A stretch of 64,000 bases of DNA from Mariannaea sp. PMI_226 (lineage: Eukaryota > Ascomycota > Sordariomycetes > Hypocreales > Nectriaceae). Below the pieces are notes generated by a model that did no database searches, was not told where the DNA came from, and saw only the letters and a program-made list of their open reading frames with translations. The stretch is taken from the NCBI GenBank assembly GCA_024336345.1, contig JANFOG010000019.1:310001-374000 (forward strand). Direction: 5' to 3'. Of this stretch, positions 7,048 to 58,828 are shown one piece after another; the first letter of the stretch is position 1, and every line of letters starts with the position of its first letter. The position numbers were made by a program, and so were the translations under genes.

Positions 7048-7368
7048 CTACGCAGAGCTCAACTGTACTTTCCACAGGGTGCCAATAACATGCTGAAATC
7101 CGGCATCCTGACAGGCTGCAATCAAATGCAGCCCTTCGTCGACGAGCTCATCGTACACAATTTGCCTAGTTCCGCAGGCTGAAAGATAGGCAAAAGACGG
7201 TGCGTGGCCACGAATATTTGTCTCAGGGAGACTTGCTACCTCTAGTTGCCCGTCTCTCAGAACCAGAGAATCGTGAATATAGCGCTCCGCTACAGGACTT
7301 TGCACAGTAGACATAGCGAGAGAATGTTTTCGAAATAACGGTGAGAGGATGGATATAAACTCTCGCAT
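7048..7368 (-). pseudogene. CHAT-domain (caspase-like) protein remnant
   Basis: The minus-strand frame of 106 residues contains FAYLSACGTRQI, then DEGLHLIAACQDAGF and HVIGTLW. This is the C-terminal half of a CHAT domain, a caspase-fold peptidase found at the end of fungal TPR proteins and NLR-like proteins. The Cys of SAC is the presumed catalytic cysteine. The upstream half with the catalytic His-Gly pair and any TPR or NACHT part is missing. The frame breaks just after GTLWKV, so the domain lacks its last strand. Nearby DNA is mobile-element debris, so this is most likely a gene relic. Confidence 0.65.
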
Positions 7369-8170: not shown

Positions 8171-8171
8171 A

Positions 8172-8260
8172 ACAATACAATACAATACAATTTATTACGC
8201 CCAATCTATATACATATACAGATGTAGTCTGTAGGCCCATAACCAAATGAGGCGCGGACC
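8172..8260 (-). mobile_element. LINE-like 3' end with (AATAC)n tail
   Basis: The minus strand reads GGGCGTAATAAATTG followed by about four GTATT units (8172-8190). The conserved block is the same as at 1423-1436, but the tandem tail has a different unit. This supports a real element family rather than chance. The element body would lie at higher coordinates; I could not identify reverse transcriptase sequence there. Confidence 0.5.
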
Positions 8261-11667: not shown

Positions 11668-13739
11668 TGGATTCAGATCATAGGGGATCAAATCTTTTGG
11701 TCCCTCTAAGGAGTGAAAATAAGTCAGTTTCTTAAGATAAAGGATTAATTAGGCTCTCCAGTGAGTTCATTTCATTATATATTACATGGCTACTACGACC
11801 ACACTTCCTCGACCTTCTTTAACTACAATCTACCGTAACCTGCCATTATTTGATTCACGTTAAAAGTAGACGACTACCACCTCGCACGCAATTCTGGGGA
11901 AACAACACAATATTGTAATCCTCTCTCCCCTCCACAAGGTGTCCATCCCTCTTACGCTCTCTGCAACTCGCTGACTCGCGTCTTGTCCCTGTATTGGTGC
12001 CCGAGTCTTTCTGTACGGATACCATCTTGTATCAACGAGTGCTTCCAAGCCTCAACTACGAATTCTACCAGTTACGTTAATTGCGAATTCGCGAGATCCA
12101 TTACCACTAAAACACAGACCAATCTCTTGTATCCGTTTGCCTGACGTACAGCATCGGCTGATATGAAAGAGGGCATTGTTGTTGTAACATCTCCTCAGTT
12201 GGTGTACCTAAATGTATATGGCGCGTGTGGCCAATCACTTTCTTCATGCGAAGGTCTTGTATCTTCTCAGCAGTGGGGTAAATATCTGCTGATCTCCGAC
12301 CATGGCGTGTTACTGTATCCTCGCACTCTTATCTTTCCGTTGCACCTCTGTCCGCCGGGCCTTGACCGAGTATTTAGCGATTCGATACCATGACGTTGAC
12401 TCTTTTTGAGTCTTTGCACTCGCGATAGCTTCCCTTTCCGTTGCTAATTCTTGGGTTGAACGCTTAATGCGAGCCGACCTGAATGGAACATCACATATAA
12501 CCAGAATCTGGGTTCATGACAATTGTTGCGATGCTAGCCACCTTGACGATTATCAACCTAAAAGTTACCATCGGAATAATCCGACGTATCATAATTTGCA
12601 CAGTGGCGTAGGAACTCACACAGCATGCATGACTCCCAAATGAGCAGTTTTCAGTCACCAGCGGGTGGGCGCTAATTCTTGTGCGGCGATCAATAATAAC
12701 CCGGTGTACTGTTTGAGGTGGGTGCTGTATCTGTTAGATTGACACCTGTGTGCCGTTAAAGGGGCGCTAAAATGTGCGATTAATGAACCAACGCCCCCGC
12801 ACGAACAGTGATGAAGCAACAGAACAATAATCAAGGCTTCAATCAATAACGTCATCAATTTTTCACTCGACTATCTAGTATATTCACCCCATCGTGTAAT
12901 CATCATACCCATCGCGTATCGAACAGTATCCTTAATGGCTACAATAATATATCACTACTTCACAGTTAATATGAGCGCTAATAGAGTCTTCTCGACAGTT
13001 GTTGTTAGATCCTTACCATTACATCATTATCATCTAATTTCAAACCATAGCGTCAGCCACAACTGTCAAAAAACTGAGCTTAGTCAGCAAGCTACCTACC
13101 GAAAACCCATGTCGATGAGATACCTGGCGAGTCAAAGCGTCACCCTTTGTGTAACAACAGTAGTACCGTCGTTTGACACTAGGGCGGGGTCAAAGCTCAC
13201 ACCAACCGGTTGAATGACAACCCTTAACCCGCTTGTCTAGTGTTCTAACTCTATACCGATCATAGCCAATTATATCCCTTTTGGCATCATGCTGCACTGT
13301 ACAGTTCAGATACATAGCTGGGCGAGGGGACCCTTGTCGCCGATACCGAACTGGATTTGTTCATGGTATGCTACACGTCAAAGATACACAGCAAAAGTGG
13401 ACCGGAGGGCTCTCCGGAACCCACTTCAGCAACCAGGGTATTGCAGTTTGCCGACGTGTCTGGCTAGCTGATTGACCTACTCCTACAACGGGGGTCAGAC
13501 TTTCAAGGCCCTTAGTTCAACGCGTCTGAGCAAGGAACTCTACCTCTACGGACACAGATCATCCGCCAGTCTGGCGGGCATTTAATGGCCCTTGCCCTTC
13601 TTCTGACGCAGGGCTGCGGCGCCCTGTGAAGGATAAAGTGGTGATTTAGACAGATTAGAGTCATACTGTACCTCAGACACACTAGGTTTACGGCGCATAG
13701 CTTTAGGGGCAAATGACAGCAAGTGGGTACGGAACTATA
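11668..13739. other. Gene-free stretch downstream of the 7TM-RGS gene
   Basis: About 2 kb with no convincing gene. Open frames of 60-92 codons (for example 12935-13213) have no domain and unremarkable composition. The first 100-200 bases should hold the 3' untranslated region of the RGS gene. Confidence 0.45.
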
Positions 13740-30430: not shown

Positions 30431-32061
30431 TCGGCAAACTCGTGCCCGCACTGCAATACCATGTCCGTGCGAGAAGGCTGCTAAGCAGATGGCAGAATAG
30501 CACTGCCAGACAGAAACATAGAACCACTGTTTCTTCCCGCTCTTCGGCGCCAAACCACTTCAGCCTCCTCGAAATCAAGGAGAGGGAAGGTTCCATCTAT
30601 CACTACCATTCAATTAGCGCTTGGGGAAAATGGCGATGTCAGGGTATGCAACAAACACCAAGGCCAAAAATCAAGGGCTGATTTCTTAGCAGGCCGCATG
30701 TGCACAAGAGTTTTCTCAGCTCCGGTACATGGAGAAGGTTTGAATCCCCAAGACGGTGATGCGAGGCTCGTCCCAAACTGATGATGATCAGGAAGCGCTG
30801 CGACAGAACCATGCGCATAGCTGTGGTCCGCTTGTCATCAGGCATGCGCGGCGCCGTATGCTCAGTCGACCTATTGTTTCCAGAGAAGATAGGTATGATT
30901 CGGGAAAATTAAGGGCCGAGGCTGTAAGCCTCTTGGGTTCAGCGTGGGCAAGTAAAGCATCGGTCGTTGCGCCGGAGCGGTGAAGGAAGAAACGGGTAGG
31001 CAAGGAGAGGGAGCAAGACTACCCAGGGGAAAGGGGCAAACGGTGGAAGGTATGATAGAATTTTTATCCATGAGCAAGCGATTAAAAAGTCGATAAATAT
31101 TGTGAGTATGGTGTTGCAAAAACTGTACAGAATGTAGGGAATCGAGCCCCCGGTGCCGTTTTAGTCGAGGCCATAAATGGTTGTCTTTTTGCCTAGCTAG
31201 TAAATCTAATCTGTAATTCTTATGTACAAGGTTGGGACAATGAGTGGCTAATTTGGGGTCTAGGCCGTGTATTTATGCACAAAACATCCCATACCCGCGC
31301 ACCTAATTTCTCCATTGTGCCTTGCACTAACGTCGACCGACCCGTTATGGTGTCTCAGGTGAGGGAACTCAAAGCTAAACCATAGATACCTTAACATCGC
31401 TTGATATCTACTACAATACGCTATGTCTTTACACTGCTCACATCGCTTGATCTCCTCCGTTTATCAAAGTATCATCTCCTTTCATCGGCATCATGTAGAC
31501 AACTGGGTAACTTAGTCTATGCAAGAATCAACTCATCTAATCTATTCCAACCAATACAATAATAATTATTTCAAATACTATAATATATAATTTCCTACCA
31601 TAACTTGAGATGGAATTTATATTAATTTTCTAAGATTTTCTGATATTCCTATCGAATCTATAGGGTAGGCTTACTCTCTTGTAAACAGTGGTGTCACAAG
31701 GCGCCTGACCCATAGGGATACAGTGATAGTATTGATAGGGAACATTAGAGTATCCGTACAGCTAATTTACTAGTTATTATTCCCAAGCGTTCCCCAAGCC
31801 TCCTTCCTGTTGAACGGGCAACGGGCTTTTCCTCTAGGGTAGGCTCCGCCCGACACATGTGCGTTCAACATCTCTAAAGCTACATTCCAGGCCCCAAAAG
31901 CTACCGGCTTGACACCCCTGCTCGTGTGGGTAAAATCTAACAATATTTCAAGCGTCAACCTCCGTCCTTGACCAAATTCCCAAGCAACCAACACTCCACA
32001 TAGTCATAGAACGCCCCTGCAATATAATTTAATAAACAGACCTTGCGCGAATGCTGTTCAC
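30431..32061. other. Gene-free stretch downstream of the MHYT gene
   Basis: No recognisable gene. Short frames at 30442-31119 occur on both strands without domains. 31500-31770 is AT-rich. The last part should contain the 3' untranslated region of the minus-strand gene ending at 32062. Confidence 0.4.
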
Positions 32062-34885
32062 TCAACGGCTCTTAACAAATTCCGCGAAAAAGACATCCAC
32101 AAACGATACGATATTGTTGAGGTCGCCGTTTCGGGTCTCAATGTGGGATACCTGAGACACAGCCGAGACTTTAGCTCCTCCATGTCCCATGGGCCTCAGC
32201 TCAATCTCTGATGCTGTCAACGACATGCGGTGCGCACTGAGCGTCTTAGTACCTATGGGACTCTGGACTTCTGATGGCTGCTGATACGCTTCTGTGTCTG
32301 AGTGAACCCCTTTAATATTAATGCTGATCTCTTGGGACACCATGATACCGCTATACGATGGTGGCGGCTGCTGCGAGTTCTCTTGAGAGGAATATGGCCC
32401 AGAGTCGTCCATTATACGTATCGGCTGTGAGCGGTTATCTCTTCCAGGCGAACGAAGGTTAGTCGTTGTCTGGACAGATTCGGAAGACAATAATGGGTGT
32501 CCGCTCATCGATGACGCCGACTTCTCTGCGCTTCCAAAAAACCGCAACTTCGATGAGAGGCCTGATTGTTTGTCTTCAGGTCCATCAGTAGGACAACCAA
32601 TTCTCTTAAAAATGGGCCAAAATTCCCGGTGCACGTCCTCCATGAACCCCTGATGGAATTGGTCCGCTACCTGGCGCATCCTGAAGAAGCTCAGAGGCAC
32701 CAATTCGCAGTTGGGGCTTGATAGTATTGAATGGATCGGCATTACCAGCCGCAACGCTATCATGAATGTCTCTGCTTGGCCGTCTCCGTCTCGGAAATGC
32801 AGACGGACAATAGTCGGGGTAAATGTGGCATCTTCGAAGAAAGGTTCTTGAATCCACTCGCGCAGAGCTTCAATCGCATCACCAAGTTGCACGGCGAACT
32901 TCGTTTCTTGAGAGGATCGACGCGAAGTACAATCTCGCAGACTCTGACGAAGCTCCGTTACGGTCAAACCATGGAGCTGCTTCAAAAATTCCGCCTGCCA
33001 TTTCTCGATGCTCTTTATGGGCAGAGCCATGGAGGGAAGAAGGTTTCTAGTGCCTTTTCGCACGACCACATAGAATCCAAGTTTGACTCGCGGTCGGATT
33101 GCGAATAAGCCCAGGTGGACACCAGGCGGGATTCGATCTTGCTGATCTGCATATGCTGCCATGTCCCACATTTTCGCCTCAAATTCGGGAGATTGGATCT
33201 GCATGCTGGATCTGATAATGTCACAGACCTGGTGCAGGTCCGCAAAACGGTAGCCAGAGGATACCAGCCGGTCTGCCTCGCGATCTGTGTCGACCCGGCG
33301 AACCAAAAACATGAGCGACCCACGGCTGTATTCTTGCTGGCAGTTGAGACCTTTTGTACCAACGTCAGTCGTACCAGGGTCGGCCTTGATTGCATTAACG
33401 TCAATTGAGAAAGGCCTCGGTTGATGTTGTCCCTGTGTTCGCTTGGAACCCGACCCTGTCTGGAGGATCTCGTCCCAAAGAACTCCAACAGAAGTAAGGT
33501 CCTCCCGCAGCCGATTGCCCAGTGCCGCGGCGGCAACGCAAAATAACTCACGGAAGATGATATCGTATTCTTCAATTAACTCGCCATGGTCGTTGATGAG
33601 CCGAACGCCGCGTTTTCCATTCTTGCTATAACCAGAGTCTGGCATTTGAGTTAAGTGATAATTCATACTGTTGATAAGTCTTGAGATCCCGCTCCAGTTT
33701 CTCGAGGCCTGGAACATCCAATGGAATAATGAATGGGCGATGGTGAAGCCTTCCTTCGTATTCTGACGTTGTTAGAATTATTTACGAGAAAGTACTACCA
33801 GGTGCCTACCTTTTCCAAGAATGAATCCGCCACAACTGTACAGGGAATGAGTCCATCTGGATCAACAAGTACCCTCCCGTCTTTGTGAAATACAGCGGCG
33901 GCCAAGGTAATCTGTTGCGCCCGAAGGGCAGACCTCCGCATGTTCCTAGCTCGGAGAATCGCCAATCCAGCCATGATGACACAGGAACCGAGAGACTATT
34001 TTAACATTAGCGACCCTACGGCCGTGAACCTTCGAAGTTATGCGCAATAGACTAACCAGAAAGATAACAATAATCACGGTTGCGCTTCGAGACAGTTTGT
34101 TTTTCTTCGATTTGATATTGACTAGTCGATACCGCGTCCCAACAGCGGCACACCAGTGCATCCCAGAAACAGCCCCCGCCAGCACGACGGCAGAAATCGT
34201 TCGCTTCCGCCATGAGGTGGCCCACATAGCTCGGAAGACAAAGAACATAGCTAGAGCCACAATACTGGCAACAACAGAAATGGTCGCAGCGCCCACGACA
34301 TATGCCGGTCGATAGATGCACACATAGTTGGTGATAGAAGCGTTTCCAAGGTAGTGCATTCCACATATGGTAGCTCCGCAGAGAATACCGCCGACTGTGA
34401 CTCTCCACCAGGAAACACGATTGTTTGTGCCGACGGCGACAAAGGCAGCAAGGAGTACGATGATCGGTACGAAAAAGGAGATTGCAGTAAAACCGGTCGA
34501 GTATTCTACCTGTAACTCGGGCTCTCCGTTGGCTAGGTTAATGGCTGTGTTACCGATGAAATGCTGGGAACAGTAAGCAAATATCTGACAACTCTTCGGT
34601 CTGCCTACGCACCATGCACCAAATGGAGATGCCGCCCATGGTGACGGCCGAGCTCAGAAGGAGGAGGCTGATTCAGTCAGCTAGATGTTCCTGCGATTTT
34701 CAGTGATATGAGACAGCGGCATACTGGTTAAAGAGCCCTTTGAGCCCGGTCCGGCGGTTGATCAACTCGAGGGTCGAGGCAGCGCCTATGAAGCTGACGA
34801 TGTAGCTGAGAACGACAAAACCGGCATTGTAGCTCTGGGCCACAGCCCGGCCCTGGTATTCACGGAGGAGATCCTCGGACGACAT
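32062..34885 (-). CDS. MHYT-domain integral membrane sensor protein
   Basis: Five exons on the minus strand join in frame: 34885-34725, 34667-34613, 34563-34057, 33995-33810 and 33762-32062, giving 869 residues. Introns are 47-61 nt with GT-AG ends. The N-terminus has seven hydrophobic segments and three MHYT-type motifs: WCMHFIGN (M72), CGMHYLGN (M141) and SGMHWCAAVG (M207). MHYT is a membrane domain whose Met and His residues are proposed to bind a metal and sense O2, CO or NO; in bacteria it occurs in CoxC and CoxH of CO-oxidation clusters. The cytoplasmic part (about 600 residues) has no enzyme domain I can name and ends in a low-complexity Ser/Pro/Gln tail, so its output is unknown. The divergent neighbour 2.3 kb away encodes a HoxX-like CO synthase. 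No damage is seen. Confidence 0.88.
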
Positions 34886-37185
34886 TAAGGAACTTTACGG
34901 CTAGCAACTTCCGTCACAGTAACCGTCCATGAAAAGAAGATCACTACTGGGCTAGACAACCGCACTTAAGTATGCGGGTAGTTCTCAACATAATATCCTC
35001 CTTCCGATGTGACGTTTCATGGGAGCCCTACTGGCCTAGGACGTAGGCCAATGAACAACGCGCATTGCGCATTTCTTGTTGGCTCGAATCTCATGTCGAT
35101 TGGTGCCTTGGTACCTGAAAAATGGGAAATTGAGTTCTGCTTCGAGAGCGCAACTTTTTCTCCGGGACTAGATTTCCAACAGAATGTTCTTGCACGTGAG
35201 AAGTCCAGCGAGAACATCTTTACCATACAATGATGTTGTCATTGGGAGGGACATCGTGCAGGATGTCGTGGAGCGACCCAGGTAACGCACTAAGCTCTGG
35301 CATGAACATCTTGATGGCCATTGGCGAAGCTGTCGTTCATCTCCATGCATACCATGTCTCTAGGCTCAAGGGGCCTAACGGACCATGTTTGCCCACCTGA
35401 GAGGCGGAGAGGAGTAGAGACGAATGTGGCTAGCTGAGAGACCCCTGAGGCTAGCTGCCACCCTCGGTAAGGGACTGCTATGTATTTTGAATGGGCCAAA
35501 AGGAGAAGAGTTGCTGAAGCGGCTGTAATTGGGTCAATCGATGTGGGGGCGCGAAGTTTAAATTGCTAGATGATGCTTGATGACGCTGGCTGGCTTACTG
35601 AAATCCTGCATTCGATCCCTTTGCTTCTCGAGGGATGCACCCATGGTTATCGATGCTGAGACATCCTCAGTAACCCCCCCCCCAAAGCCCGACAATTGGT
35701 AGTGTATGGAGGCTTGAACATGTTAGGCAGGTAATGTCATAGCTTCGCTATCTCTGACCCTCACGCTCGGAGAGCCATCCATGGCGCTGATTACGCGACG
35801 AGAACTGAGACACCAATCCGTGTATGAGGGAAAAATCGTCCTCCGTCCATGTCTCAGCCTGCCTCTGGTCCCTCCGGGGGGATGGTGGGGGAGAAGGCGG
35901 ACAACTTGCCTGGTTCCACTGAGTATCCTGTCCTGACGCAATGATCTAATACAGTGAGATATACTTTGTCTCTCACCTTCATGAAGACATTTCTAACCAC
36001 TATTTTACGAAGCCTACAGCATCGGAGGGTGTCGGGGACTTTTTTCCTGCACTCTTTTCTCATGTGTATCCTCAATAGGTACCAGAGCTGCTCGCAGACC
36101 GCTCAACCGCCCTGCAGCCGCTGCCGTCTCAGGAGCCGCTATGCCAGCAACAAATGTCAGCTCACACACCGGAATAAGACGGCAGACCAGCTTTTGCTAG
36201 ACAGCAGCTCAGACCCATCTGGAGGCATCCTGAGGCTGGATATCCGATAAGCATGACTTAGCTCGTCTGAGAGTTCATTGGCGTAATGAGCGTTGCCAAT
36301 CTGTTCCGGCAGGAATCACCAAGCGCACCGTGTTAATATGCTGACGAAATTCGGAGTCATAGTCATTTCCATCCGATGCAACTTCATATTTTCTCGCGTC
36401 ACGCCTCAAACCTATCCTACTTACAGATATACTTGGCGGTGATTGGGGCAGGGGGCCAGAGAACCTCTTGGGGTTTGGACGCTTTGACCCTCACCCTGGT
36501 TGGAATAGCCTGGATTATAGCCTAGGTCTATTCCTTGCCAGACGACCGAGTTGCCCATAGTAACCTAATCGTACCACTCCAGGTAGGTCCATCTTCAATT
36601 AAACGCCGATCATGTTTAGGGGCATCCCCACACTGAACAAGCTTAACTGATTGCTGGCTGCTGCCCCTGTCTTTCGAAGGCCTGGGCCGCCCGCGCTAGT
36701 CTCGTCAGAACGACCGGTAGGATTAGACCTTGCTGATGCGCCCTCCAAGCCTCGCGATGCCCCAAGCATATCATGGAGGTTCGCAGATCCATCTGTGCTG
36801 TGATCGGATATGGCCTGAATTCCACCCGTAGCCGGCTCAACTTTTGTAAAGCTGAATGACCGGCTGTTAAAGCGATGTTGCTGCAAACTCAAGTCGGACT
36901 ACACAGGACCAATCGAGTGCGTGTTAAGAAACATGGCCGGTGTACTAACGTCGGCATCTTGCGTCATAACACTCTAATGCACCGACTCTACTTCTATGCC
37001 CGAGGCCACCCCTTACTTCGTCTCACTCTTGAGACTGCCTTTTGACTCTAGATCCGGGATCTATAGGCTACGGACTCAGCACCATGTCCACGTATATACA
37101 CGGCGGGTTTGTCCAGTAAAACCCCTGATGGGCTAAGACTGTCCGCCACCCTTCCTGTCAATCTTCGTCCTCTTGATTCCCGACT
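34886..37185. promoter_or_regulatory. Shared divergent intergenic region, MHYT and hoxX genes
   Basis: About 2.3 kb separates the two start codons, long enough for two promoters. A run of 10 C lies at 35674-35683. Short frames (for example 35954-36250 plus and 36599-36892 minus) show no domain, so I see no third gene. I cannot name individual binding sites. Confidence 0.4.
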
Positions 37186-39561
37186 ATGAAGATCCTCTTT
37201 CTTTGCACAGCACACAACTCGTTCTCCCAGCAGCTTTTTCTTGCCCTGTGTCGGACACATTCAATCACTATCGAATATGCCCTTTCTGACCAGGTCATGG
37301 TCGAGGCCGCAACACTTGCCCAGCCAGACATTATCATCTGCCCCTTCTTGACCTCTCGCGTTCCCTGTGAGATATACACGAAGTACCTCACTCTCGTTGT
37401 CCATCCTGGACCTCCAGGGGATGCCGGCCCCAGTGCCATCGACTGGGTTCTCATGGGCGACGACGGTACGGTCTCGGAGTTCGACCAGCTTCTCCAAGCA
37501 CAGACCTGGAGCCGGACTGGCCGCTCTCACTGGGGTGTCACTGTACTACAGGCCGTTGCAGAGTTGGACGCCGGCCCAGTTTGGGCATTCGAGCAGTTTG
37601 AAATTAATATCGACGCACCAGGAGTCACCAAGTCGACGCTTTATCGTGGACCCGTCACGCGGGCTGCCATAACCGCCACCCTAGCTGCTCTGGACCGCAT
37701 CTTGACGGCAGCCAACCAAAATACATGCTCTTACGCATACACGCCGTCACACCCAGCGGGATATGAGAAGCACTGCCTGTCGGCTACGTCGTCGGCAATG
37801 CTACCGCAAACGCAGTCAAACTCAGACTCAGTTTCGACATTGATTCCGCTCTCAGGACCAATGACAGTGTCTGCCAGCCGCATCTTCTCTCGCCTTCTAC
37901 CCGACCCTGCGTATCGTCTTGCATGTGTGACAAAGCAGCTCCCCTTCCTCGGCGGCGCAACTCACCGGCGCCCTCTCCTCAAAGCCGCCCACCGCGGCTT
38001 TGATGTACGCTCAGAAACTGCCCGCGACATCTCACGGAAGCTCCGGTCTGCCGACTCGCAACCAGGTTGCCTCACCCGACTATTTGATGAGGTAAGTCTA
38101 TACGTCTACGGCGGCACCATCGAGGAGGGGCGGAACCTAGTGGGAGGTTACAACACTGAATGCGAGGACTATTGCGACGAGGCCTGGAGACGACTCGAAC
38201 CGGGCCGCATCATCGCATGCAGGGACGGTGCCATCTGCATCGCCACTAGTGAAGGCATGGGCATCTGGATTACTCATGTGAGGCAGGTGAAGCGCAAGGC
38301 CGATGCGATGCTTTGGCCCAAGGTGCCTGCAGTGTATGGATTGCGTAACCTTGGCCTTCTAGATCATGCTACTCTGAGCAAAACGCTCATGCCACGCCCG
38401 ACAGTCGATTGGTCCAAGGCGAGGCACTCAACGCACCAGGAGATTTGGGTTGACTTTGTGACATATTCCAACGCCCGGCACGTCGCCTTTGTGTACTTTG
38501 AGTTTTACAACGGTGCCATGAGCACAGAACAGTGCTCACGTCTTATTGAGGCGCTCGAATTCGTCTCGTACACCCACATCATCGAGAGGCCTCTGAGCGC
38601 CGTCGTGCTCATGGGAGGCGACTCGTACTTTAGCAACGGCATCGCGCTCAACGTCATCGAAGCGAGTCCTGACCCTGCTGCTGAGTCGTGGCGAAACATC
38701 AATCGTATTGATGATGTGGTGCATATATTGCTTGAAGACTTTCCGAGACGTAAGATCTTGACTATTGCTGCACTGCGAGGCAACTGTGCCGCGGGAGGCG
38801 TGGCTATGGCGGCGGCATGCGATGTAATGATTGCAGGCTTAGAGACGGTGCTTAATCCCGCATATCGAGCCCTGGGTCTCCATGGGTCTGAATTTCACTC
38901 CTTGACTTATGGCGGGAGATGCGGGGTCGAGGGCGCGAAGCGCTTGTTGCGAGACATGCTTCCCCTGTCACCTTACGCGGCGAGAGATATGGGGCTGGTC
39001 GACCATACACTGCCTGGCTCGGGAAGCACACTTGATACCAGAATTCGTAATCATGTTGGGGCCATGGTTTGCACCCCCGGATTTCGGTACCTCCCAGGCA
39101 ATTGGAAGGTCGGTGTCGACGTGAGCCCGGCCGGACTAGCGGCGGCTCGAGCCGAAGAGCTAGGTGAGATGGCCAAGGATTTCTGGAGCGCTAGGTCAGA
39201 AAGGTATCACTCGAGGAGGCGGGACTTTGTGCGCAAGGTCAAGCCTGTGCGAACACCGTTGCGGTTTGCGTCGCATCGGCGGCACGGCGGAGTAGAGGAT
39301 GAGGAGGAGAGCGATGCGTTTGACGACGTCACCGCGTTTGAGAAGCTTGCCGTGGAGACGATGGTTAAGTCGAGAATGCCTGAGATGGAGACACAGGCGA
39401 GACAAAATGCATCTCTACCTCTGAGTCCTGCTAGCAGCCCAGGTCAAATGAATTGTTGCAAGAAGGATATGATGACATCATCTCCCTTGCCTAGCATAGA
39501 AGTCAGACCGCAGCGAGACTTGGAATCGGTATTCACTTGCTATTACGACCCGGCGGGTTGA
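37186..39561 (+). CDS. hoxX: HoxX/HypX-like CO-forming protein
   Basis: A single 791-codon exon encodes both modules of bacterial HoxX/HypX. Residues 1-200 resemble 10-formyltetrahydrofolate-dependent formyltransferases: VVHPGPPGDAGPSAIDW (71-87) and WGVTVLQAVAELDAGPVW (116-133) hold the active-site region. Residues of about 420-660 form an enoyl-CoA-hydratase-like domain with oxyanion-hole segments FSNGIALN (near 482-489) and GNCAAGGVAMAAACD (near 531-545). The end YHSRRRDFVRKVKPVRTPL is typical of the family. In bacteria the first module passes a formyl group to coenzyme A and the second releases CO, used as a ligand of the NiFe-hydrogenase iron. Fungi of this kind are not known to have that enzyme, so the use of the product is open. 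Start ATG 37186 fits MKILFLCTAHNSF. The gene is intact. Confidence 0.9.
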   Translation: MKILFLCTAHNSFSQQLFLALCRTHSITIEYALSDQVMVEAATLAQPDIIICPFLTSRVPCEIYTKYLTLVVHPGPPGDAGPSAIDWVLMGDDGTVSEFDQLLQAQTWSRTGRSHWGVTVLQAVAELDAGPVWAFEQFEINIDAPGVTKSTLYRGPVTRAAITATLAALDRILTAANQNTCSYAYTPSHPAGYEKHCLSATSSAMLPQTQSNSDSVSTLIPLSGPMTVSASRIFSRLLPDPAYRLACVTKQLPFLGGATHRRPLLKAAHRGFDVRSETARDISRKLRSADSQPGCLTRLFDEVSLYVYGGTIEEGRNLVGGYNTECEDYCDEAWRRLEPGRIIACRDGAICIATSEGMGIWITHVRQVKRKADAMLWPKVPAVYGLRNLGLLDHATLSKTLMPRPTVDWSKARHSTHQEIWVDFVTYSNARHVAFVYFEFYNGAMSTEQCSRLIEALEFVSYTHIIERPLSAVVLMGGDSYFSNGIALNVIEASPDPAAESWRNINRIDDVVHILLEDFPRRKILTIAALRGNCAAGGVAMAAACDVMIAGLETVLNPAYRALGLHGSEFHSLTYGGRCGVEGAKRLLRDMLPLSPYAARDMGLVDHTLPGSGSTLDTRIRNHVGAMVCTPGFRYLPGNWKVGVDVSPAGLAAARAEELGEMAKDFWSARSERYHSRRRDFVRKVKPVRTPLRFASHRRHGGVEDEEESDAFDDVTAFEKLAVETMVKSRMPEMETQARQNASLPLSPASSPGQMNCCKKDMMTSSPLPSIEVRPQRDLESVFTCYYDPAG

Positions 39562-42500
39562 CATTCTGTTTGCTATTCCTTCGATGGCGGGTTGGTCTCC
39601 ATGGGCTTGACACAGTTTGGGCTAGTGGCGGTTGTTGGGCGCCTCTGCGACGGTGTATCCAGAAGACATTTAGTACGCAGGACTTTGGTTAAAGAATCGA
39701 GATATAATATCCTAGATTAGAGAATTTAAAATTAGCTACGAGATAAAAATAACTTCTGAATGTATTATACAACATACACGCCTGGCCAGTCGTACGGCTC
39801 TTCTCGGCTTGGATAGAGGAAAGTTGGCTAACGGCTTGATAGCAGGGCAATACGTTACTATATCAGTTACAATCAACCTCGCCCTCCTGAATAAGAAAAA
39901 TTACGGTTTTAAAAACCGAATCCAAGCCAGATAAACTACCAATAATTGGTTACTAAACAGCAGGCGAATAGCAACGTGAAACACTTTCTAATCCAATTTA
40001 TCAAGCGTCGTCCGAAACCCCACGCATTTCCTTATTCGGAGGCTTTATCATTTCGTTTCATTTCGCTTTTCTTAATTAATAACGACCGCAAGCCTGCCCA
40101 AAAACTGAGTCTTCTCGAGCGCTGTGTTCCTTGCAACAATGTCATAAGCTCCTCATCCCTAGCCTCCTTGATCTGCTCCTCTCCCAACCCTAACCCTCTT
40201 TGAGCAAGTTTGCAATGCTATTAATGATAACCTTAGGTCGTATTTCGCACTGACTAAAAACTACTTTTGCGACTTATTCGATCGCGTTCCGCGTCTACTA
40301 TACCTCTGCTAAGCGTATTCTAACCCCAGCTTCGATAAGCGTATATGAGCCCTGTAAATAAGACAAACCAAATTCAACCCTACACCCTGGCATAAATTAA
40401 CCCTACTGGGTTTAAAGTGGGTCAAGAAAATCGACTCTACTAGAGTTGATTTCGTCATTAGCTACTAAACTAGCTTGCTAAGAGCTCTAGGTCTAAAAGC
40501 CGACTTTACTGAGATCCCTACTGTCGTCTCTCCACTGTTGATCTCCAAGAGGTCAAATTTGGTGTTGTCTTTGCGTCTCATCACTGGTGCAAAATGTACT
40601 TCATTGCTGTCGTTATCAACATCCAGAGGGTCGGACGTTTCATTTAGTTTATAAGTTGAGGCACTTCTTGATGGCGGTCCCGGGAATGTTTGGGTTTGCG
40701 CTAACTGGCAGTGATCGTTATTAGGTTGGTGCTAAGATGTAGTCCGATCCCTTCATGACTGCCACTCATATTGGTGTCTTCTTATCCAGTATCCAGGGGC
40801 TTGCAAGCAGGGTTATCTAGCAGGCCGTCGGTTAAAAGAGTGGCAGTAGCACAAGGATTTAGGTCTGCGACTTCCTTTCCTGACAGGTCCTCTCTCAATG
40901 TGGTATCATCACTTCATTTCATCGTCACTGTGACGTTTCAGGTCTGACAGGTCGGTCTGACAGGTTGGTCTGACGAGACAGCAAGCTGCTGACCAACGTC
41001 AAATCCTCGCAATTTGATTCGCCAAAATACCCAGCCCAGCCATTTCCTCCACCGCGCACGTACCCAGAGATCGAGATTGTTTGATCTGTGGTACACCTGT
41101 CGCACAAGGCAAGGTAGGGAGGGCAGGGTATGGCTATTGGGCGTTGGTCGCTGTCTTTGTTTGCGCTGCGCCCACTCAGCTTGGCAAAGTGCTCCCTTTA
41201 GTGCCCCCCTCCCTCCCCCCTTTCTCAGCCGTCATCCAGTTGTTCGGTTTCCATATACCCACCCTGGCCGCGGTAACTGACGGCAGCTGCCGCGGCTGTA
41301 ATCGACGCCGTCTAGCAGGGATCGGGTGCGTGCTTGGTAGCCTATGGTACGCCCACGTACGCCAATTTAGGGGGGAGGCTTTCTCCTGTTCCACCGCTCG
41401 ACCGTAAAGTATCTACAGTACTTTTCTCTCCTCTCATTATCTTCATCATCGATACGAACTTCACCTTGCTGGCTTGCATTTACCATGACCCGATGATGCA
41501 ATGTTTAGTTTTGTCTGATGTCAATCCTTCTAGCTTCATGCAGGATGCGGTAACTAAAACCAATGCTTCCCAGCTTTCGTCAGCAGGCGATCCTCATCTG
41601 ATGTTCCTATTGCTCAACTTCTTCAATGGAAATTTGACCCACTGTCCCTACACCTCCACTTGTTTTCTCCCATATCTTCTCATCTCACTTGCCATCTCCC
41701 GTCGCCATACTCGGTCGGTCAAGTCAACGGCACATGCTGCTGATAGCATATATGCCCACCTTGCCACGGTCAATGAAGAGGGGCTATTCTTTGTAGATCT
41801 AGCCTAGAATATGCTACACACCCCACTTCACGCCAGAGCAAGGCCAGAAAATCATTGTGGCTAATGGGGATAAGCCGCATTTCATTCGTAGTGGTGTTGC
41901 TCTTTTGCCTCTGACATTTTGTGAGGTAAGGCTTAAGACGTTCGCAAATTTTACTCTAGATGGAAATAGATCGTCAAAAGCTCTTTAGTATAGGGGGAAC
42001 ACCAGTTCATGGACCATATCATTCCTCGCATCATGTGCCCAACCACTCCTGTGTGAGTTGCTCAGGAGAAGTATTTTCGTATACTCGTAAAGAGTCAAAT
42101 ATGAATCCGGCAAGACGTTATTGATTTCTTGATGTTCACTTTTCATTGCTCTGTATCTACGAATGGGAGGTTGCTCACTCCCACTCTACTACTCAAACGG
42201 TGGCCTTGTCTGTCTATTACGTACCTAAGTCCCCATAACGCGAAATCCCTATCCTCCCCCCTTTCTCCTGCTTTCTGCCATCCATATTGGAGCGTTTCTA
42301 GGATAGCAGGTTGGAAGCTTGCGGTTTGACATGTAGGCACCCCACGCACATACATGCATTGATCCAGAACGGAAAACACACGGGGAGAAAGGGTGAGAAA
42401 TTTCATGTCCAAGCCCCGGGCTGGATATCCAATCGAGAGCCACGTGCCCGACCCAAGAGCTTGAGCTAACTGCCACTTTAAGCTTCCCGCTTTGTATGGT

Positions 42501-43180
42501 AGCATTCAACTTTTACAGTACTGTACACCACATCGCCCTTTAGGGGGGTAAAGAGAGGAGTCTGGAGGGAAGAGAGAACAATGATTTGAAGATGAAAATA
42601 CCACTGCTTATTGGTGTTTTATAGGGCTGGCTACATACCACCCCAATGAGACAACCCCTATCACACCAAGCCGCCGCCACCACGTTCTGCACTTTGGCCC
42701 ATTCCAGCATTTATATGGCATTACCAAACTCACACACCGGCTCTGCCTGGTAACCAATCACTTTGGATGTCTCCGCCAGGTTGTGTTATGTGAGTGATTT
42801 CCGCCGCCGAGGCACAGAGCAGGAGTCGACTCTTTAGACGCATAGCAAGAGAGCAGATCCTGGCAATGCAAGAAAGACGACACCAAGAATGCTGCGAGCT
42901 GTATTTTGAACACCAACTTAATGGCAAAAAGGGGGACATATTCAGGAAAAGCAAGCGCGAGGCACAGAAAGAGGAGGCCCAGACCGGCAAGTAAGAGATG
43001 TCAGAGGCCACCGCTCATGTGATAAGGTCTTATGGTTTATCTCATCGACAATTGCATTTACTAATATGATGTGCTCTTCGTCCTTAATAAATTAACTATT
43101 TGTGTGTGTGTAAACTATTAAAGCAATTGTATTTTAGAAGAAACTGTTCATCCCCCTCTTTTCTGCCATTCAATGGAACC
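39562..43180. other. Gene-free stretch, partly AT-rich
   Basis: No recognisable gene over 3.6 kb. 39.66-40.45 kb is AT-rich and holds AACCCTAACCC at 40186-40196. A 13-bp unit GGTCTGACAGGTY repeats nearly three times at 40941-40974. Frames such as 41334-41807 (157 residues) and 42794-42994 have no domain. The long frame may be composition-driven. Confidence 0.4.
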
Positions 43181-43186
43181 CGCACA

Positions 43187-43277
43187 TTCTTCTTCTTCCT
43201 CCTCTTCTTCTTCCTCCTCTTCTTCTTCCTCCTCCTCTTCTTCTTCTTCCTCCTCCTCCTCTTCTTCTTCTTCCTCC
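43187..43277. repeat. TTC/TCC microsatellite
   Basis: About 90 bp of CTT and CCT triplets on the plus strand. It creates artificial poly-Ser and poly-Phe/Leu frames in different phases, which I do not count as genes. Confidence 0.9.
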
Positions 43278-43526
43278 ATTATGTTCAATATCACCAATCA
43301 GCTAAGTGCGCTATTCAGCTTCAAGTGGATTCGTAATCACCTACATGCGGGCGACACTATGAGTTTATATACACAGGGTAACTTACAGAACAGCCTTGGT
43401 TAAAGCTACAGACCTCAAGTTATAAAACCAGTTAGATCAAATAGATGCTTCCCTAGAAATCCCGACAACCGGGCTAAATCAAAGGCTCCCTATATAGAAG
43501 GTTTCCAATACCATAGAACCTCCAAT

Positions 43527-44888
43527 ATGGCCTGCGAAATCCTGAAGCCCGGCCTCAAAAGGACTAAAGAAAACACCAAGCTCTATACCCAGAAGATGCT
43601 GTTTACTACCTCGCCGCGCCCTGTCCATCTTCAATTAGTGGAACTCCCACCATCACCACCCCCACCACCCCCAAATACACCACTTCCTGAGATCCCCATC
43701 CATGCTCGACTTCTTGTAGCACCAGATTAGGTTAGCCAGAAGGTGCAGGATCGCTAAGTCTCCACCGAGACCTCACCGTGCACTATGCGGAAAGGCCAAA
43801 CAAATGGCTCCCTCCGCCCCGAGCATGTCGCTATACCTCCAAGGACTACATCCACAGCGTTTTTGTCGCGTTCCTATGAGAACCCGCATAAACCCCAGCG
43901 ATTACCTTACCCTAATATAACTTCAACCAAGCAGCTTTATCGACATATTGCTGAGCTTTATTATAACCCATCTAAAGAAAATGAGAAAGTTCTAAGGTTT
44001 TATAATAGATCTATTTAAGAACTCCTTCCACAAGTAAACGGTAGTCACCCAGGTCAAAAGTCATATATCAAGCCTTGCAGTCGAGAGTTTATCCACCCAC
44101 TTGATAAAGTTATCATCGGTAGTTCAGAATTTGCTCGCTCTTCCCCAAGAAGCCATTCTAGTCCCGCACTTTATTCTCCCCAGCTGGAGTACAATTGCGA
44201 TAAGAGTAAACCAATCATCTCTTAGCCATGCCCACCAAAAACAGTTCGACCTGTAGTATCATCAGAAAACTCCACTAAAGTCATTTATCCCCGCTGTCCA
44301 AATGCTACGCCAGCTCAACAGGCTCGCTTTCAGGCCGAGTATGGTTGTCAACGAAGACCTGGTATGAGATTCCAGGAGACACGCTCGAATCACGTCGCCC
44401 GTGGCCATCGGCAGACAGGGGAATCACCTAAACCAGACACTAAGGTCAGCTTGCTTGAAAGTCGGCGAGGAGAAACTTTAGGGTTATGGCCTAAAACTAC
44501 GCCTTATAAAAGGCCAATCCCCATTATCTTAGCGACGAGCAAATTCGCCACCTATCTTCCAATGCGTGAAGCTGAACCTCGTCCTGTCTTTACAAAGAAA
44601 TCAGCCCCCAATCTTCGGAGGCTAGACATGCACGAGGCTCTGCGACTTCATACACTTCCTCAACCTCCTCAAAGTCTTGTGGCCACTCAACCGCCCTCGC
44701 CCTGGGTTAATGCTCCCATGGCTTCCGTCTTCGACAGCGATGACGAGGAAAAATATAGTTGCTTGAACTTCCTCCACAGTTACAGACGCAAGAGCAGCGA
44801 GGGGCGCGAATTCGGCAAGGGCACTTCTGTAGGATTCAAAAGAGGCCGTTCCACGAAAGCCTCGGAATCACACTCTCTTTGGATTTAG
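43527..44888 (+). pseudogene. Unknown gene broken by in-frame stops
   Basis: One reading phase stays open for about 450 codons apart from four stops: TAG near 43728, TAA near 43755, TAA near 44016 and TAG near 44223. Between them it keeps protein-like content, including a proline run (PPSPPPPPPNTPLPEIP), LDDNYNP-like acidic and aromatic patches and an Arg/Ser-rich end (KGTSVGFKRGRSTKASES). No domain is recognisable. The stops could have come from CAA/CAG codons, so RIP or simple decay is likely. It sits between the microsatellite and the MULE, so it could also be mobile-element cargo. Confidence 0.45.
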
Positions 44889-45148: not shown

Positions 45149-48100
45149 GGCGGCTAATAGGCGGACGGGTACCCGTCCCAATTACTGTATTCGGTATCGG
45201 TTCCTCCGTCATCGGACCTTCCATTTTATCGTGTTCAAAGTATGTAACTCGACTCAGAACTATCGAGGTTTACATATCTACAAATTCAACTAGAAACGTC
45301 CAAAATTTATGAGGCTTTAGCTGCCTTGAATTGTGAGCCTATCGAAATTGCACTTATGGATTCGACAAAAACACGATTACCGGCGTCGTTCGCCGACGAT
45401 TGCCTCCCACCTGAGGGCGAATATGAATCACGGGATGCCTTATTCCAAGCGATCAACGCTTGGGCATCGACAAGGGGCTACGCATTTACTACTGGAAGGT
45501 CAACCAAAGAGAAAACCGGCAGGCAAACGATGACATATATGTGCGATCGTCGCCGCAACCATCCCATTGTTTCAAGAGAGCGTCGACGGAAAACAACGAC
45601 TCGAACAACTGGTTGCGAATTCTCGGTATTAGGGAAAGAGTCTCGAGATAAGAGTACCTGGATTCTACGGCATCGTTCCGACAACCGGTTCTCACGGCAT
45701 AATCATGAACCAAGTCAAGACACGACCGCCCACCCGATACTTCGAACACTCTCCAAAGAGAATCTGTCCCAATTGACAAGCCTTACAAATGCCGGTGTCG
45801 CCCCAAAAGAAATCAGAACGTATATGCGCCAAAATACAGACACAATTGCAACACAGCAAGATATCTATAATCGTATTACAGACGTCAGACGAGAACTTTG
45901 CCAAGGACAAAACAGCATCAATGCACTTGCTGATCAATTGTTTAAAGAAGGATTCTGGAGCCAGTTCCAAACTGATCCGGACGGTCGAGTTAAAGCTGTT
46001 CTATTTGCTCACCCTGATTCCGTGGCGTACCTCCAATCCTACCCAGATGTACTCATACTAGACTGCACTTACAAAACGAACAAATACAGAATGCCGCTTC
46101 TAGATTTGATCGGCGTTGACTCCTGTCAACGATCTTTTTGTGTTGCATTGCGCTTTTTTGAGCGGCGAATGCGAACAGGATTATTATTGGGCTTTAGACC
46201 GGTTCAGATCACTGTGTGAAAGTCGCAAGATCAGGCATCCTTCAGGCGTCTTGACAGATCGCTGTGTAGACTGTATGAACGCCGTCGCTACATGCTTTCC
46301 GTCATCCAATCCGCTTCTGTGTCTTTGGCATGCCAACAAAGCAGTTCTTCGTTACTGTCAACCCCGATTTACACGCCAGTTCCAGGAGGGTAATCAAGGA
46401 ATCGAAGCCTGGAAAGAGTTCTGTAACCATTAGCATTCGATCGTCAAGTCACAAAACGAAGTGATATTCCATGAACGTGTATTGGAGTTTGAGCAAAAGT
46501 ATATTCCTGACTATAGTGAAGAAGTAAGGTACGTCAAGACGAACTGGCTTGATCAATACAAAGAGAAGCTGGTAAAGGCTTGGGTTAATCGGCATCTTCA
46601 CTTTGACAACGTCGTCACTTCACGGGTCGAAGGCATTCATTGGTTACTTAGGAGTCATCTTAAAGTATCGACATTGGATCTATTCGAAGCTTGGAGGTCA
46701 ATCAAACATGCATTGCTTAACCTACTCGCCGAGTTAAAGTCTAATCAGGCTAAACAGCATACCCGGACGCCTATTGAACTCTCTGGGGTCTTGTATAGTG
46801 CTGTACGAGGTTGGGTGTCTCATGAAGCTTTACGGAAAGTCGAACAACAGCGGAAGCTACTGTTTAGTACAGATCCGCTCCTCTCGCCAACCTGTACAGG
46901 ATCTTTTACACAGTCTCAAGGCCTGCCTTGTGTTCACAAATTGGAGTGTTTCTTGGCTCAGGAACAGGCTCTGCAACTCGAAGACTTCCACCCGCATTGG
47001 CACCTGCATCGAAAAGATTCCCCACAACCACTCCTAGAACCACGCCGGCGCATCGATCCAGCCATCACCACTTCGTCCTTACCGCTATCAAGCGTTCGAA
47101 GAGAACTCAGTGGTTTCGAAGTCATCGAGAACGTCAGAGCTACAAGAACGCCTCCTTTGTGCAGCAAATGTCATATACTGGGTCACACAAGGATTTCGAA
47201 AGATTGTCCATTAAGGTATTCAGAACTTAGAGCATTACCGACTGTTTTTTCGAAGCTACCAAAGGCTCAATTACAACATTTGCGGTGGATACCAGACCCA
47301 GCATCAGAGCAGCCGCTTCTACCTTCGACGACATTCGAGCAGATACACTGGCATTCGGTCATCACTCCGGAAGAGTTTGAGTTCGAGTCTGAGTCTGATG
47401 TAGTTTCGGAACACTCGCTACTATTAGTCATCGAATCGGGGCTTGGTGCTGAGGAAGCAACCGCTAACGAACCATCTGCAGAGCCACTCTTTCAGCCGGC
47501 CGCAGAACCTACGCCTCGGTCGCCTACAATCCCCTCCAGCAGATTATCACCGCCTCCATCTTTACAAGATTCAGCCTCATCTCTGCCTCTCAAGTATAGT
47601 GATCCGCGGGCAATTCACCAGAGATACGTTGCGTCCAGGGATGCTTGGTATAAAGCCCAAGGCCGTGGGAATTTTGTGGGCAATCAACAGTATCGAAAGG
47701 CAATGGAGCTGCCCTTGAGATATTCTAAAGAAAGCTTCAAGTGGTGTCTTGATTATAAGCAGATGGGGAAACGCTGTACTACCTCGACAGGCTCAAGGGA
47801 GTGGACCAAAGAAGAGATGATGGCTTATCTGGACTGGGATAAGATGGAGACGGATCGTGTTGAAGCCAGAGTAGCCCAGGATGCGGAAAATGGGCGATTA
47901 TTCAGTGGCATAAAGGGTATGCGTGAGATTTGGGAAATGGCACAGCAAGATATTGATGAGCAAGAAGCCTTGTATTCCGCTATAGAGCAGGAGGAAAGCT
48001 GTATTATAGTTCAGCCATAGTACTGTTGAAACTTATCGAAGACCATTCATATGCTTCAACTCTACATCTATAAGGAGACTGAAAAGTGGCTGTATTACAA

Positions 48101-53447: not shown

Positions 53448-54313
53448 TAATAGCTCCCGGACATGGAGGGAAACAGCCTGACGGCCTCTTGTAGGGTTGG
53501 TCGATAAAAGCACTCGTGGTGGTCTGATGGCTTGTTTTTAGGCTTTCAACGCCTTGCTAGTTGTAGATAACACCTGTCGGAAAAACGCGCCCCCGGAGAT
53601 GGGAAGAAGGGTATTTTTGCTTCGCCACCACACGGTAGGGAGAGGCATGGTCTGATGCGGAGTTTGACATGTGCGGGTTAAAAATGAACTTTAGGTTTCC
53701 TTCATATATCCAGTGCGAGCCATGTTCACCATCACGTCAAGCTCCGGTCATCAAGTCACAGAGCGGCGCATCTCCGGTCTCGGCTTGATGCGGAACTCCC
53801 CACGCCCTGAGTAATGAAGTGGCTCCTAGCTGGACAAGCCTTTGTCATGTAACGCATCCAGGCCTGAGGTCTCTGGAGCTGGAGCGGCCGCTAACTCGGC
53901 GTTAAGGTAGGTGGTGGGTAGTGGTGATGGTGGCGGTGACATACGCTCAAGCTTTGGTTGGTTATCGATGTATTTTCCTATCGATACCTTGGCTTCCGGT
54001 GAAAACAAGGGCATTGACCATGGAGATCTCTCGACAGCTTAAAAAGATCATCTCCGAAGAGCGGGTCCAGTGGAGACAATCCCTTGAGAGTTTATGAACT
54101 GGGGCCTGAGTGTGGGAGCGTCGACAAGCGTCCAAACAAATGGGCTGGAGTTTTCTACCCGAAAACCAAGACACAGTCCTCCAATAAAGAGGAGCCTGAG
54201 CCATCCCGAGCATGTGGGCGGGAGAAGAGGTATTCATCCTATAAGAAGGGAAAGGCCTACGTTGCGACAGGGTTAGATTACAAGCTGTTCCTCATACCGA
54301 AGACACATTTATA
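53448..54313. other. Gene-free stretch
   Basis: Short frames on both strands (53826-54314) have no domain. The last 150 bases probably hold the promoter of the RGS gene at 54314. Confidence 0.4.
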
Positions 54314-54895
54314 ATGCAATCATTACTTGAAGTGATCTCTAATTTAAATTCAGACGCAGGGGGATTTGATGATTTTACAGCCTATCTTTCAAAAAATCAT
54401 TGCCTAGAAACCCTTCAATTCGTCCAAGACGCATCGAGATATCGAGCTTATTACGCAGAGATAGTCGAGGATAAAGAAATCCCTTGGGCATATCTAATAC
54501 GCCATTACGATTACCTGCAGGACCTATGGGAAGATCTTCTCGGCACTTACATCCTCCCTAGCGGACATCGCGAGATCAACCTTCCCTCTGAAGTTAGGGC
54601 TCGACTTCTTGGATTACCTTCTTCTGCACTTCCTCCACATCCTTCGGAATTGGATGATGCCGTCAAGATCGTCCTTGAGCTCATGGAGGACTCGATCCTA
54701 CCTGGGTTCCTGAAGCCTTATGTGTCGCTGGATGAACCTGGAGACAGTGGTGGTGGCTGGAAGGGAATTTTCGGCAGACTTCAACGGAAAATCCCAACAC
54801 CCGTGTCAGAACGGGGCTACGAGGACTCTGGGTCGCGGACTTCCGGTTCGAGAGAAGATGGTGAGGCCACTCTTTGTAAACCCGCCGCTTCATAG
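54314..54895 (+). CDS. Small RGS-domain protein
   Basis: A 193-residue frame from ATG 54314 with no internal stop. Residues 5-135 form an RGS domain: FDDFTAYLSKNHCLETLQF, QDASRYRAYYAEIV, TYILPSGHREINLPSEVR and LPPHPSELDDAVKIVLELM. It matches the minus-strand RGS gene at 50.7-51.4 kb block by block, so the two are paralogues. A Gly/Ser-rich tail follows. No membrane segment is seen within this frame. An additional downstream exon is possible but not supported. The role is presumably G-alpha regulation in the cytoplasm. Confidence 0.75.
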   Translation: MQSLLEVISNLNSDAGGFDDFTAYLSKNHCLETLQFVQDASRYRAYYAEIVEDKEIPWAYLIRHYDYLQDLWEDLLGTYILPSGHREINLPSEVRARLLGLPSSALPPHPSELDDAVKIVLELMEDSILPGFLKPYVSLDEPGDSGGGWKGIFGRLQRKIPTPVSERGYEDSGSRTSGSREDGEATLCKPAAS

Positions 54896-57640: not shown

Positions 57641-58828
57641 TGTAAAAAGCAAGCCCACCTAGCAACCGACCGACCAGCGTAACCACAGCCAGCGCAGCTG
57701 TAACCGCAATGCTGTTGTTTATATTGCGCAGTATTGCTGGGTGAAAAAATATTTTTTATTAACTTTATTGTTAATTATTGAGATGAGAGTTCTTCTCGGG
57801 TTTATATCTCTAGTTGATTTCATCTAGGACTTTGAACTTCAAATCTAGGACTTTCAGACAGTCTGAATCCTGAAGAGAAGGGGGATCCCCGGATTTTCCA
57901 ACACTTCCTGGCCAATAAAATCCTACTGGAATATCATTACGGTCGAGTTGTGGCAGCAAACTGCTACAGCCGGTTATGTTTTGGCCAGCTCGGGGCTGAG
58001 GCTATCCTCCAAACTGGTAGTGTTAATCAATTCTTGAGAAAGATATTCCGGGGTCTCTGGGTACCTGAAATGGTAAGTCCATATACCCACTTTTGGCCAG
58101 CCCCCCCATTTGGCCATAGTGAAAATCACAGTACGAATTCTCGTGCACCTATTTTAAACAGTCCTCCTGCTATCAATAATGAACCTCTATACAATCAGCT
58201 ATGACAGTAGATACATCTGAGTCATTTAAATCATCCTTTCAATTTGAACCCCTGCGGCCTCTTGTTGCGCCTTGTAGATTGCCTCAATGTTGGCAAACTT
58301 CGAATTGGGGCTAGTTTGAACCTTCTCCTTGGTCTGGCGGCTTCAAGCTTTAATTCTAGGCTTTGAATTTTTAGCTGTGCATTAGCCACAAGTGCTTCTT
58401 TCTCCTCATATCCCTTGTTGATCTATGAGATTGTGCAGGCGGCCTACATAAACTAAGACGCCGCTTTGGTGATAGCATGTATGACAACCCAATTGTCATT
58501 TATTAGAAGTTCATATCTATAGTAGATAAAGATATAAATCAGACCAAAACCAATGGTATACTACCCAATGTTAGCCAAAGTTCTTTCCCCCCCCAAAAAA
58601 AAAACGCACAGTGAACAAATTGGCAACCAGTGACCGCTAACCAATAGTAATACAATATGTTCGGAATAGTGGGTCTAGAATAGAATTCATATCACTACAC
58701 AAAACCCTCCTTAGATATATTAATCTTAATCTTTATTACTGTCTCGACATTTCTGAGATGAGCCACGCCAGTACAATGGATCATAGCCATAACGGCAACA
58801 GGGCGCTGGTTAAAATGCCTAAAGGGAC
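57641..58828. other. Gene-free AT-rich stretch
   Basis: No gene recognised. CTGTCCGTGC-like words recur three times just upstream (57557-57635), inside the ruined end of the beta-helix gene, hinting at an inserted repeat. The frame 57950-58204 has no domain. Confidence 0.4.

Follow-up and report, generated by a model that had tools for sequence, protein, structure and literature searches.

A divergent HoxX-like and MHYT gene pair in Mariannaea: a possible source and sensor of carbon monoxide

The gene pair at the locus

The window considered here is a stretch of 64,000 nucleotides from the assembly of Mariannaea sp. PMI_226, a fungus of the Nectriaceae (42.2 Mb in 25 contigs), corresponding to C11:310001-374000. 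It contains a pair of intact, divergent genes, one encoding a HoxX/HypX-like protein and the other an MHYT-domain protein. The features are as follows, in window coordinates.

37186-39561, plus strand: HoxX/HypX-like gene, one exon, 791 amino acids
37402-37404, 37420-37422 and 37567-37569, plus strand: H73, D79 and D128, proposed catalytic residues in the N part of the HoxX-like protein
38863-38865 and 38890-38892, plus strand: Y560 and E569, proposed catalytic residues in the C part
34886-37185: intergenic region, start codon to start codon, 2.3 kb
34885-32062, minus strand: MHYT protein gene, five exons, 869 amino acids, with the ATG at 34885 and the stop codon ending at 32062
34885-34725, minus strand: MHYT exon 1
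34667-34613, minus strand: MHYT exon 2, with M72 at its end
34563-34057, minus strand: MHYT exon 3, with H73 at its start, M141-H142 at 34354-34359 and M207-H208 at 34156-34161
33995-33810, minus strand: MHYT exon 4, the last helix and the beginning of the tail
33762-32062, minus strand: MHYT exon 5, the cytoplasmic tail
32572-33354, minus strand: MHYT tail residues 440-700, with a predicted fold that may be Nudix-like, the part folded alone
31870-39620: duplicated block with both genes, second copy at C9:389154-396902

These gene models agree with the preliminary description, which had reported two intact genes facing away from each other across 2.3 kb, and the positions that it gave for the three Met-His motifs (M72-H73, M141-H142 and M207-H208) are exactly right in the five-exon model, in which an intron separates M72 from H73.

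In a sample of ten open reading frames (ORFs) from the neighbourhood there are a MULE-type ORF (45248-46216), a chromodomain ORF (58823-59686) and two RGS-like ORFs. Three RGS-domain-like ORFs were noted in all, at 10771-11664 and 54245-54892 of the window and at 8127-9176 of a 10-kb section, L020 (C5:95001-105000), near a second MHYT gene described below. Between 14001 and 20000 the GC content of 2-kb windows falls to 34-38%, compared with 42-56% elsewhere in the window, and at 14-19 kb the TA/AT ratio is near 1, resembling RIP-affected repeats.

A second copy within the genome

The pair lies within a single 7.75-kb block that occurs twice in the genome, the two copies being 91.0% identical, and weaker similarity extends leftward in pieces from 30379. 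All four genes of the two copies are open. Between copies, dN/dS is 0.246 for the MHYT gene (dS 0.127) and 0.295 for the HoxX gene (dS 0.141), whilst the intergenic region is more diverged than most coding parts. Introns 2, 3 and 4 of the MHYT gene differ by 1, 4 and 1 bases, intron 1 is of equal length and the exons remain in frame; the five-exon model is thus supported, since the C9 copy keeps the exon frame while intron lengths vary. RIP was considered as the source of the differences between copies and rejected. Changes of C to T or G to A, from C11 to C9, number 231, against 149 in the reverse direction and 197 transversions, which is a mild bias, and the frames are all open.

A further segment of the window, 40850-44312, matches C9:375001-378282 in inverted orientation at 77-97% identity, about 11 kb from the duplicated pair, and represents a larger, rearranged duplication.

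Searches of the same genome found other HoxX places on C9 at 75 kb, on C19 and, in degenerate form, on C20, together with one further MHYT gene, on C5. Among the best candidates scored, no match to the other family was seen near those three HoxX places or the C5 MHYT gene. The place on C20 (L025, C20:45001-55000, at about 6080-7070) is a stop-ridden, HoxX-like C-terminal half with some 79-82% DNA identity to the window gene. On C9 (L021, C9:68001-78000), some 3 kb separate a HoxX ORF of a second lineage (7226-9418, minus strand) and a cyclin-like ORF (3439-4104, plus strand); two HoxX matches in other fungi (P0106, P0118) bear cyclin names, which suggests that the HoxX-cyclin neighbourhood is old. 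In the neighbourhood of the C5 MHYT gene (L020, ORF 4296-6233, plus strand), an ORF resembling FAD-dependent glycerol-3-phosphate dehydrogenase lies some 2.7 kb downstream of that gene. This neighbourhood too may be old, because single gene models in Dactylonectria, Fusarium beomiforme and F. austroafricanum (P0156, P0169, P0174) combine both domains.

The HoxX-like enzyme

The closest solved structure to the HoxX-like protein, by phmmer, is Aquifex HypX/HoxX (6j0p, E 7e-90), the match spanning a formyltransferase-like module at about residues 1-171 of the query and a crotonase-like module at about residues 335-699. Pfam reports ECH_1 (5e-13) and Formyl_trans_C (2.7e-5); Formyl_trans_N was not reported at E values up to 1. 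The two HoxX modules first described for this chain are therefore both present. The HypX/HoxX proteins of aerobic [NiFe]-hydrogenase maturation in Aquifex and Cupriavidus likewise fuse these modules, whereas the Mariannaea protein has an additional linker and C-terminal tail.

In HypX, His74, Asp80 and Asp109 have been proposed to act in formyl transfer, and Tyr416 and Glu426 in decarbonylation (PMC6802093). Their counterparts in the Mariannaea protein are H73, D79, D128, Y560 and E569. None of the five varies among the 24 fungal HoxX sequences aligned, which were picked from 120 listed matches, and they are kept, in the same order, in 80, 80, 80, 78 and 79 of 80 bacterial relatives. HypX is described in a review as yielding CO from formyl-THF through formyl-CoA (PMC12134894); a passage of the 2019 HypX paper notes that results from direct experiments were still lacking at that time (PMC6802093).

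HoxX-like proteins are common (2,752 database matches). Many of the 120 listed are fungal, and several of the 120 are named hydrogenase maturation factor hoxX. HypD (PF01924) has no match in the 42.2-Mb assembly, which makes hydrogenase maturation an unlikely role for the Mariannaea protein. Its gene adjoins an MHYT gene and not hyp genes. In one paper the name hypX denotes a gene of a tyrosine-catabolism cluster.

The MHYT protein and its tail

The MHYT domain (PF03707) is recognized in the fungal protein with an E value of 2.8e-16 and 59.7 bits, against a cut-off of 21. Its three Met-His motifs are located in transmembrane helices and, among 60 fungal MHYT relatives, the pairs are kept in every row with letters at those positions. 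A close point of comparison is CoxC of Afipia carboxidovorans, an MHYT-LytTR regulator of CO oxidation, the MHYT domain of which responds to CO and requires copper (PMC11347149). The seven-helix domain and its three conserved motifs are common to both proteins. CoxC, however, ends in a LytTR DNA-binding domain, for which the fungal protein has no match, and it governs the use of CO, whereas the fungal MHYT gene adjoins that of a putative CO maker.

At E values up to 1, Pfam finds MHYT alone in the 869-residue protein, with neither LytTR nor any other output domain. Foldseek matches nothing to an 865-residue model of the whole protein at an E value of 0.001 or better. Of 44 NCBIfam families, the 25 listed all fall far under their cut-offs. 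As far as Pfam sees, the earlier view of the tail as having no recognizable output domain holds. Fungal MHYT proteins nevertheless share a conserved tail, one part of which has a confidently predicted fold. In the predicted structure, residues 440-700 bear a tentative resemblance to a Nudix fold, with a Z value that may reflect only a common arrangement. The Nudix box has the form GX5EX7REUXEEXGU. None of 61 sequences carries it in complete form; there is only a partial motif, REWIQE, at residue 604, which reads REWIEE in the C9 copy.

Other fungi also have MHYT proteins. The tail and the Met-His pairs are common to this family, though in 18 named species its listed members lie off the contig of any listed HoxX. 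An 'MHYT domain signaling protein' occupies a single table row for Aspergillus fumigatus (PMC3576715). Taphrina is reported to have an MHYT histidine kinase (PMC4007546), which by Pfam the Mariannaea protein is not.

Linkage in other fungi

Linkage outside Mariannaea was assessed by comparing 120 listed HoxX clusters with 152 listed clusters of MHYT proteins or MHYT tails (P0267, which has no figure, was left out). Two clusters were taken to share a contig where the base counts of their longest contigs are identical; species names also agree where given. The fungal evidence outside Mariannaea is accordingly one of contig sharing, not of gene order. Six contigs are shared: those of Mariannaea (544,418 bases), Thelonectria olida (252,119), Dactylonectria macrodidyma (2,130,175) and D. 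estremocensis (1,568,072), along with two from Logan (12,960 and 25,698 bases). As a yardstick for chance, near misses of 1 to 20 bases occur in 12 of 18,240 pairs, a rate at which about 0.3 exact matches would be expected. The two Logan contigs are strong cases, whilst contigs of megabase length are weak evidence. Both Logan matches surfaced only when the tail exon alone was the query, as was expected, since introns would split the MHYT gene in intron-free gene predictions.

The two families have matching trees. In the MHYT tree (46 chosen rows) the window copy, the C9 copy, Thelonectria, both Dactylonectria species and Ilyonectria form one clade with an SH-aLRT of 100, and a matching group is found in the HoxX tree (39 chosen rows). 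The placement of each Logan tail mirrors that of the HoxX from its own contig. Ilyonectria has no HoxX partner among the listed proteins. As the linked fungi all belong to one clade, they count as a single origin, in which linkage has been kept despite divergence to about 70% protein identity.

Linkage is not general in fungi. Among 18 other named species with both proteins listed, paired by eye (from Fusarium, Colletotrichum, Verticillium, Xylariales and Pseudomassariella), none shares a contig; this is not proof of distance, since a few clusters mix strains and some contigs are short. The fungal family thus appears to work unlinked in most species. The preliminary description had set its proposal against the case in which the genes are unlinked in all related genomes. 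The proposal was not refuted in this way: the pair shares a contig in three further Nectriaceae species and on two Logan contigs, and the association recurs in bacteria.

Linkage in bacteria

Genome contigs were scanned around the best 80 of 469 relatives found with the fungal HoxX alignment. At five of the 80 loci HoxX has an MHYT ORF on its own strand and no more than 1 kb away, these being in Methylomicrobium sp. RS1, an uncultured Methylococcales bacterium, Marinagarivorans algicola, an uncultured Pseudomonadales bacterium and Nocardia terrae, which represent three separate branches of the HoxX tree. No MHYT was found near HoxX at the other 75, in flanks of up to 10 kb and shorter for some. 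MHYT counts and genome sizes (79 of the 80 genomes, 34 of them with MHYT) put the expectation within 2 kb, a limit chosen post hoc, at 0.05 cases; the Poisson probability is 3e-9 for five cases and rises to 2e-5 when the five are treated as three lineages.

Three bacterial orders were then surveyed. These surveys are not unbiased, because they centre on genomes whose linkage was already known and five of the 11 rows in the search profile (A5) are the linked sequences; of the 16 adjacent genomes in the surveys, four overlap with the original five. For the order of Methylomicrobium sp. RS1, which we take to be Methylococcales, 201 genomes were drawn, of which 59 have HoxX, 16 of those also MHYT, and 9 the two adjacent. 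Nine of the ten top-scoring HoxX proteins there are linked, the tenth (G124) belonging to a genome with no MHYT match. The order of Nocardia terrae, presumably Mycobacteriales, contributed 298 genomes, 24 with HoxX and 23 of those with MHYT; the six adjacent cases are the six top-scoring HoxX proteins. Among 293 genomes of the Marinagarivorans order, 13 have HoxX, five have MHYT and one shows adjacency. Taken together, 16 of the 44 genomes holding both have them adjacent, against 0.10 expected.

The arrangement differs between lineages. Methylococcales loci consist of hoxX, a protein of about 285 residues (receiver-like in both that were scanned), an MHYT protein of some 645-670 residues (about 930 in one) and a receiver of about 120, mostly with a protein of about 450-510 residues after the receiver. 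At one such locus (L039) the MHYT protein has the composition MHYT-PAS-HisKA-HATPase and is followed by a receiver and a receiver-kinase. This operon resembles the fungal setting in that HoxX stands beside MHYT, with no HypD in the flank scanned, but its MHYT carries fused PAS, HisKA and HATPase domains with receivers after it, and in Pfam the fungal tail has no match to any of these. In genome G127 (L113, G127:C13), two consecutive MHYT genes (7443-9419 and 9857-11821) stand behind one hoxX, the second in the place of the 450-510-residue protein. What follows hoxX in the Nocardia order is a stand-alone MHYT protein with about 280-320 residues, and the flanks differ; the Marinagarivorans MHYT protein is also stand-alone. 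All three Met-His pairs are kept in the 17 linked bacterial MHYT proteins aligned.

HypD occurs in the flank of none of 17 linked loci, which are related within lineages and so are not 17 independent cases, as against 30 of 75 unlinked loci (21 of the 45 with full flanks). It is present somewhere in 40 of 50 genomes searched, including three of the five linked genomes, in which it sits on a separate contig.

A possible carbon monoxide source and sensor

Linkage in several lineages supports a functional tie between the HoxX-type enzyme and the MHYT-type sensor. Chance neighbourhood in one genome is rejected, given that the block is duplicated, that contigs are shared in other fungi and that adjacency recurs in bacteria. 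The idea that fungi acquired the pair ready-made from bacteria by joint transfer is unsupported: fungal HoxX forms a long separate branch, with a place beside Aquifex that has a support of only 16; MHYT position and fusion vary between lineages; and Fusarium, Verticillium and Colletotrichum members of the window HoxX lineage lie off the contig of any listed MHYT.

Most simply, HoxX would be the source, and MHYT the sensor, of a single molecule. The HoxX-like enzyme would transfer the formyl group of 10-formyl-tetrahydrofolate to CoA and then decarbonylate formyl-CoA to CO. The MHYT protein, with copper probably held by its three Met-His pairs, would detect CO, or the balance of CO and O2, as a seven-helix membrane protein. 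A conformational change would then be passed to the cytoplasmic tail, part of which has the appearance of a non-catalytic, Nudix-type ligand-binding fold. Since its substrate would be formyl-folate, the pair could plausibly report the state of the one-carbon pool, a gauge that would be especially attractive in methanotrophs. That the two genes form a functional pair in which one product makes CO and the other senses it, signalling through the Nudix-like tail, is a reading we put forward tentatively, at a little short of an even chance. The preliminary description had CO both made and sensed by the pair; the functional tie in that proposal is backed by linkage, whilst CO production, CO binding by the MHYT protein, the route of the signal and its purpose are what we infer for these proteins. 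Signalling by CO is offered as a strong and testable hypothesis.

The wider form of the proposal, which is possible but held with some reserve, is that HoxX-MHYT constitutes a dedicated and recurrent module for self-made CO, independently assembled in methanotrophs, Nocardia relatives, Marinagarivorans kin and Nectriaceae. The association would have arisen several times away from hydrogenase maturation genes. HoxX, freed from hydrogenase maturation, would make CO from formyl-folate and a copper-loaded MHYT would read it, the output being a two-component relay in methanotrophs, which fuse MHYT to a histidine kinase, and a Nudix-like tail in fungi.

The nearest rival, which we consider unlikely, is a functional pair in which MHYT senses O2, NO or copper and controls the making or activity of the HoxX-like enzyme, CO not being the signal. 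The linkage fits this equally well, and the data do not separate it from a CO source and sensor. CO need not be the ligand of the fungal MHYT protein, because CoxC, besides needing copper, also answers to O2, as an antagonist (PMC11347149). The MHYT proteins NbdA and MucR have been linked to NO or nitrate (PMC11347149), and HypX is described as a CO route under oxic conditions (PMC12134894). Against this, control by O2, NO or copper leaves unexplained why the repeated partner is a putatively CO-making HoxX, and the stand-alone MHYT proteins of the Nocardia-order and Marinagarivorans loci have no visible output with which to control a gene.

It is improbable that the fungal linkage is neutral, the pair co-travelling in a repeat-rich region through segmental duplication and shared descent. 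Transposon-type ORFs do surround the pair, the 40850-44312 segment is duplicated and inverted near the C9 copy, and the linked fungi represent one origin; yet the linkage persisted as protein identity fell to about 70%, dN/dS between copies is below 0.3 for both genes, and separate recurrence in three bacterial branches is not accounted for. Finally, the HoxX-like protein might be a formyl-CoA or other acyl-CoA enzyme and the pair unconnected with CO, in keeping with best bacterial segments just 28-38% identical to the query, the long fungal branch and a faster-evolving linker and C-terminal tail (dN/dS 0.50 and 0.55 between copies), but the invariance of all five catalytic residues in the fungal alignment, including the decarbonylation Tyr and Glu, speaks against this, and we hold it about as improbable as neutral linkage.

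Significance

CO is accepted as a gas signal in animals, where it arises from haem breakdown. No paired genes for a non-haem CO maker and a CO sensor are known to us. No literature joining MHYT with HypX, MHYT with HoxX, or HoxX with fungi and carbon monoxide was found in a search that had most subscription journals outside its coverage, nor was any found on hydrogenase maturation factor HoxX in fungi; the papers that turned up on fungal HypX, and on formyl-CoA and carbon monoxide in fungi, seem from their listing to be unrelated.

If the proposal is true, the pair would be the CO counterpart of an NO synthase paired with an NO sensor. The finding points to a possible role for the many fungal proteins that bear the name hydrogenase maturation factor hoxX, in this case where the genome has no HypD match, and to a candidate source of ligand for MHYT sensors. 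The HoxX-MHYT kinase operon of methanotrophs provides a tractable bacterial version, open to standard two-component assays. Should the CO reading hold, the pair would represent an undescribed way for cells to signal with carbon monoxide of their own making.
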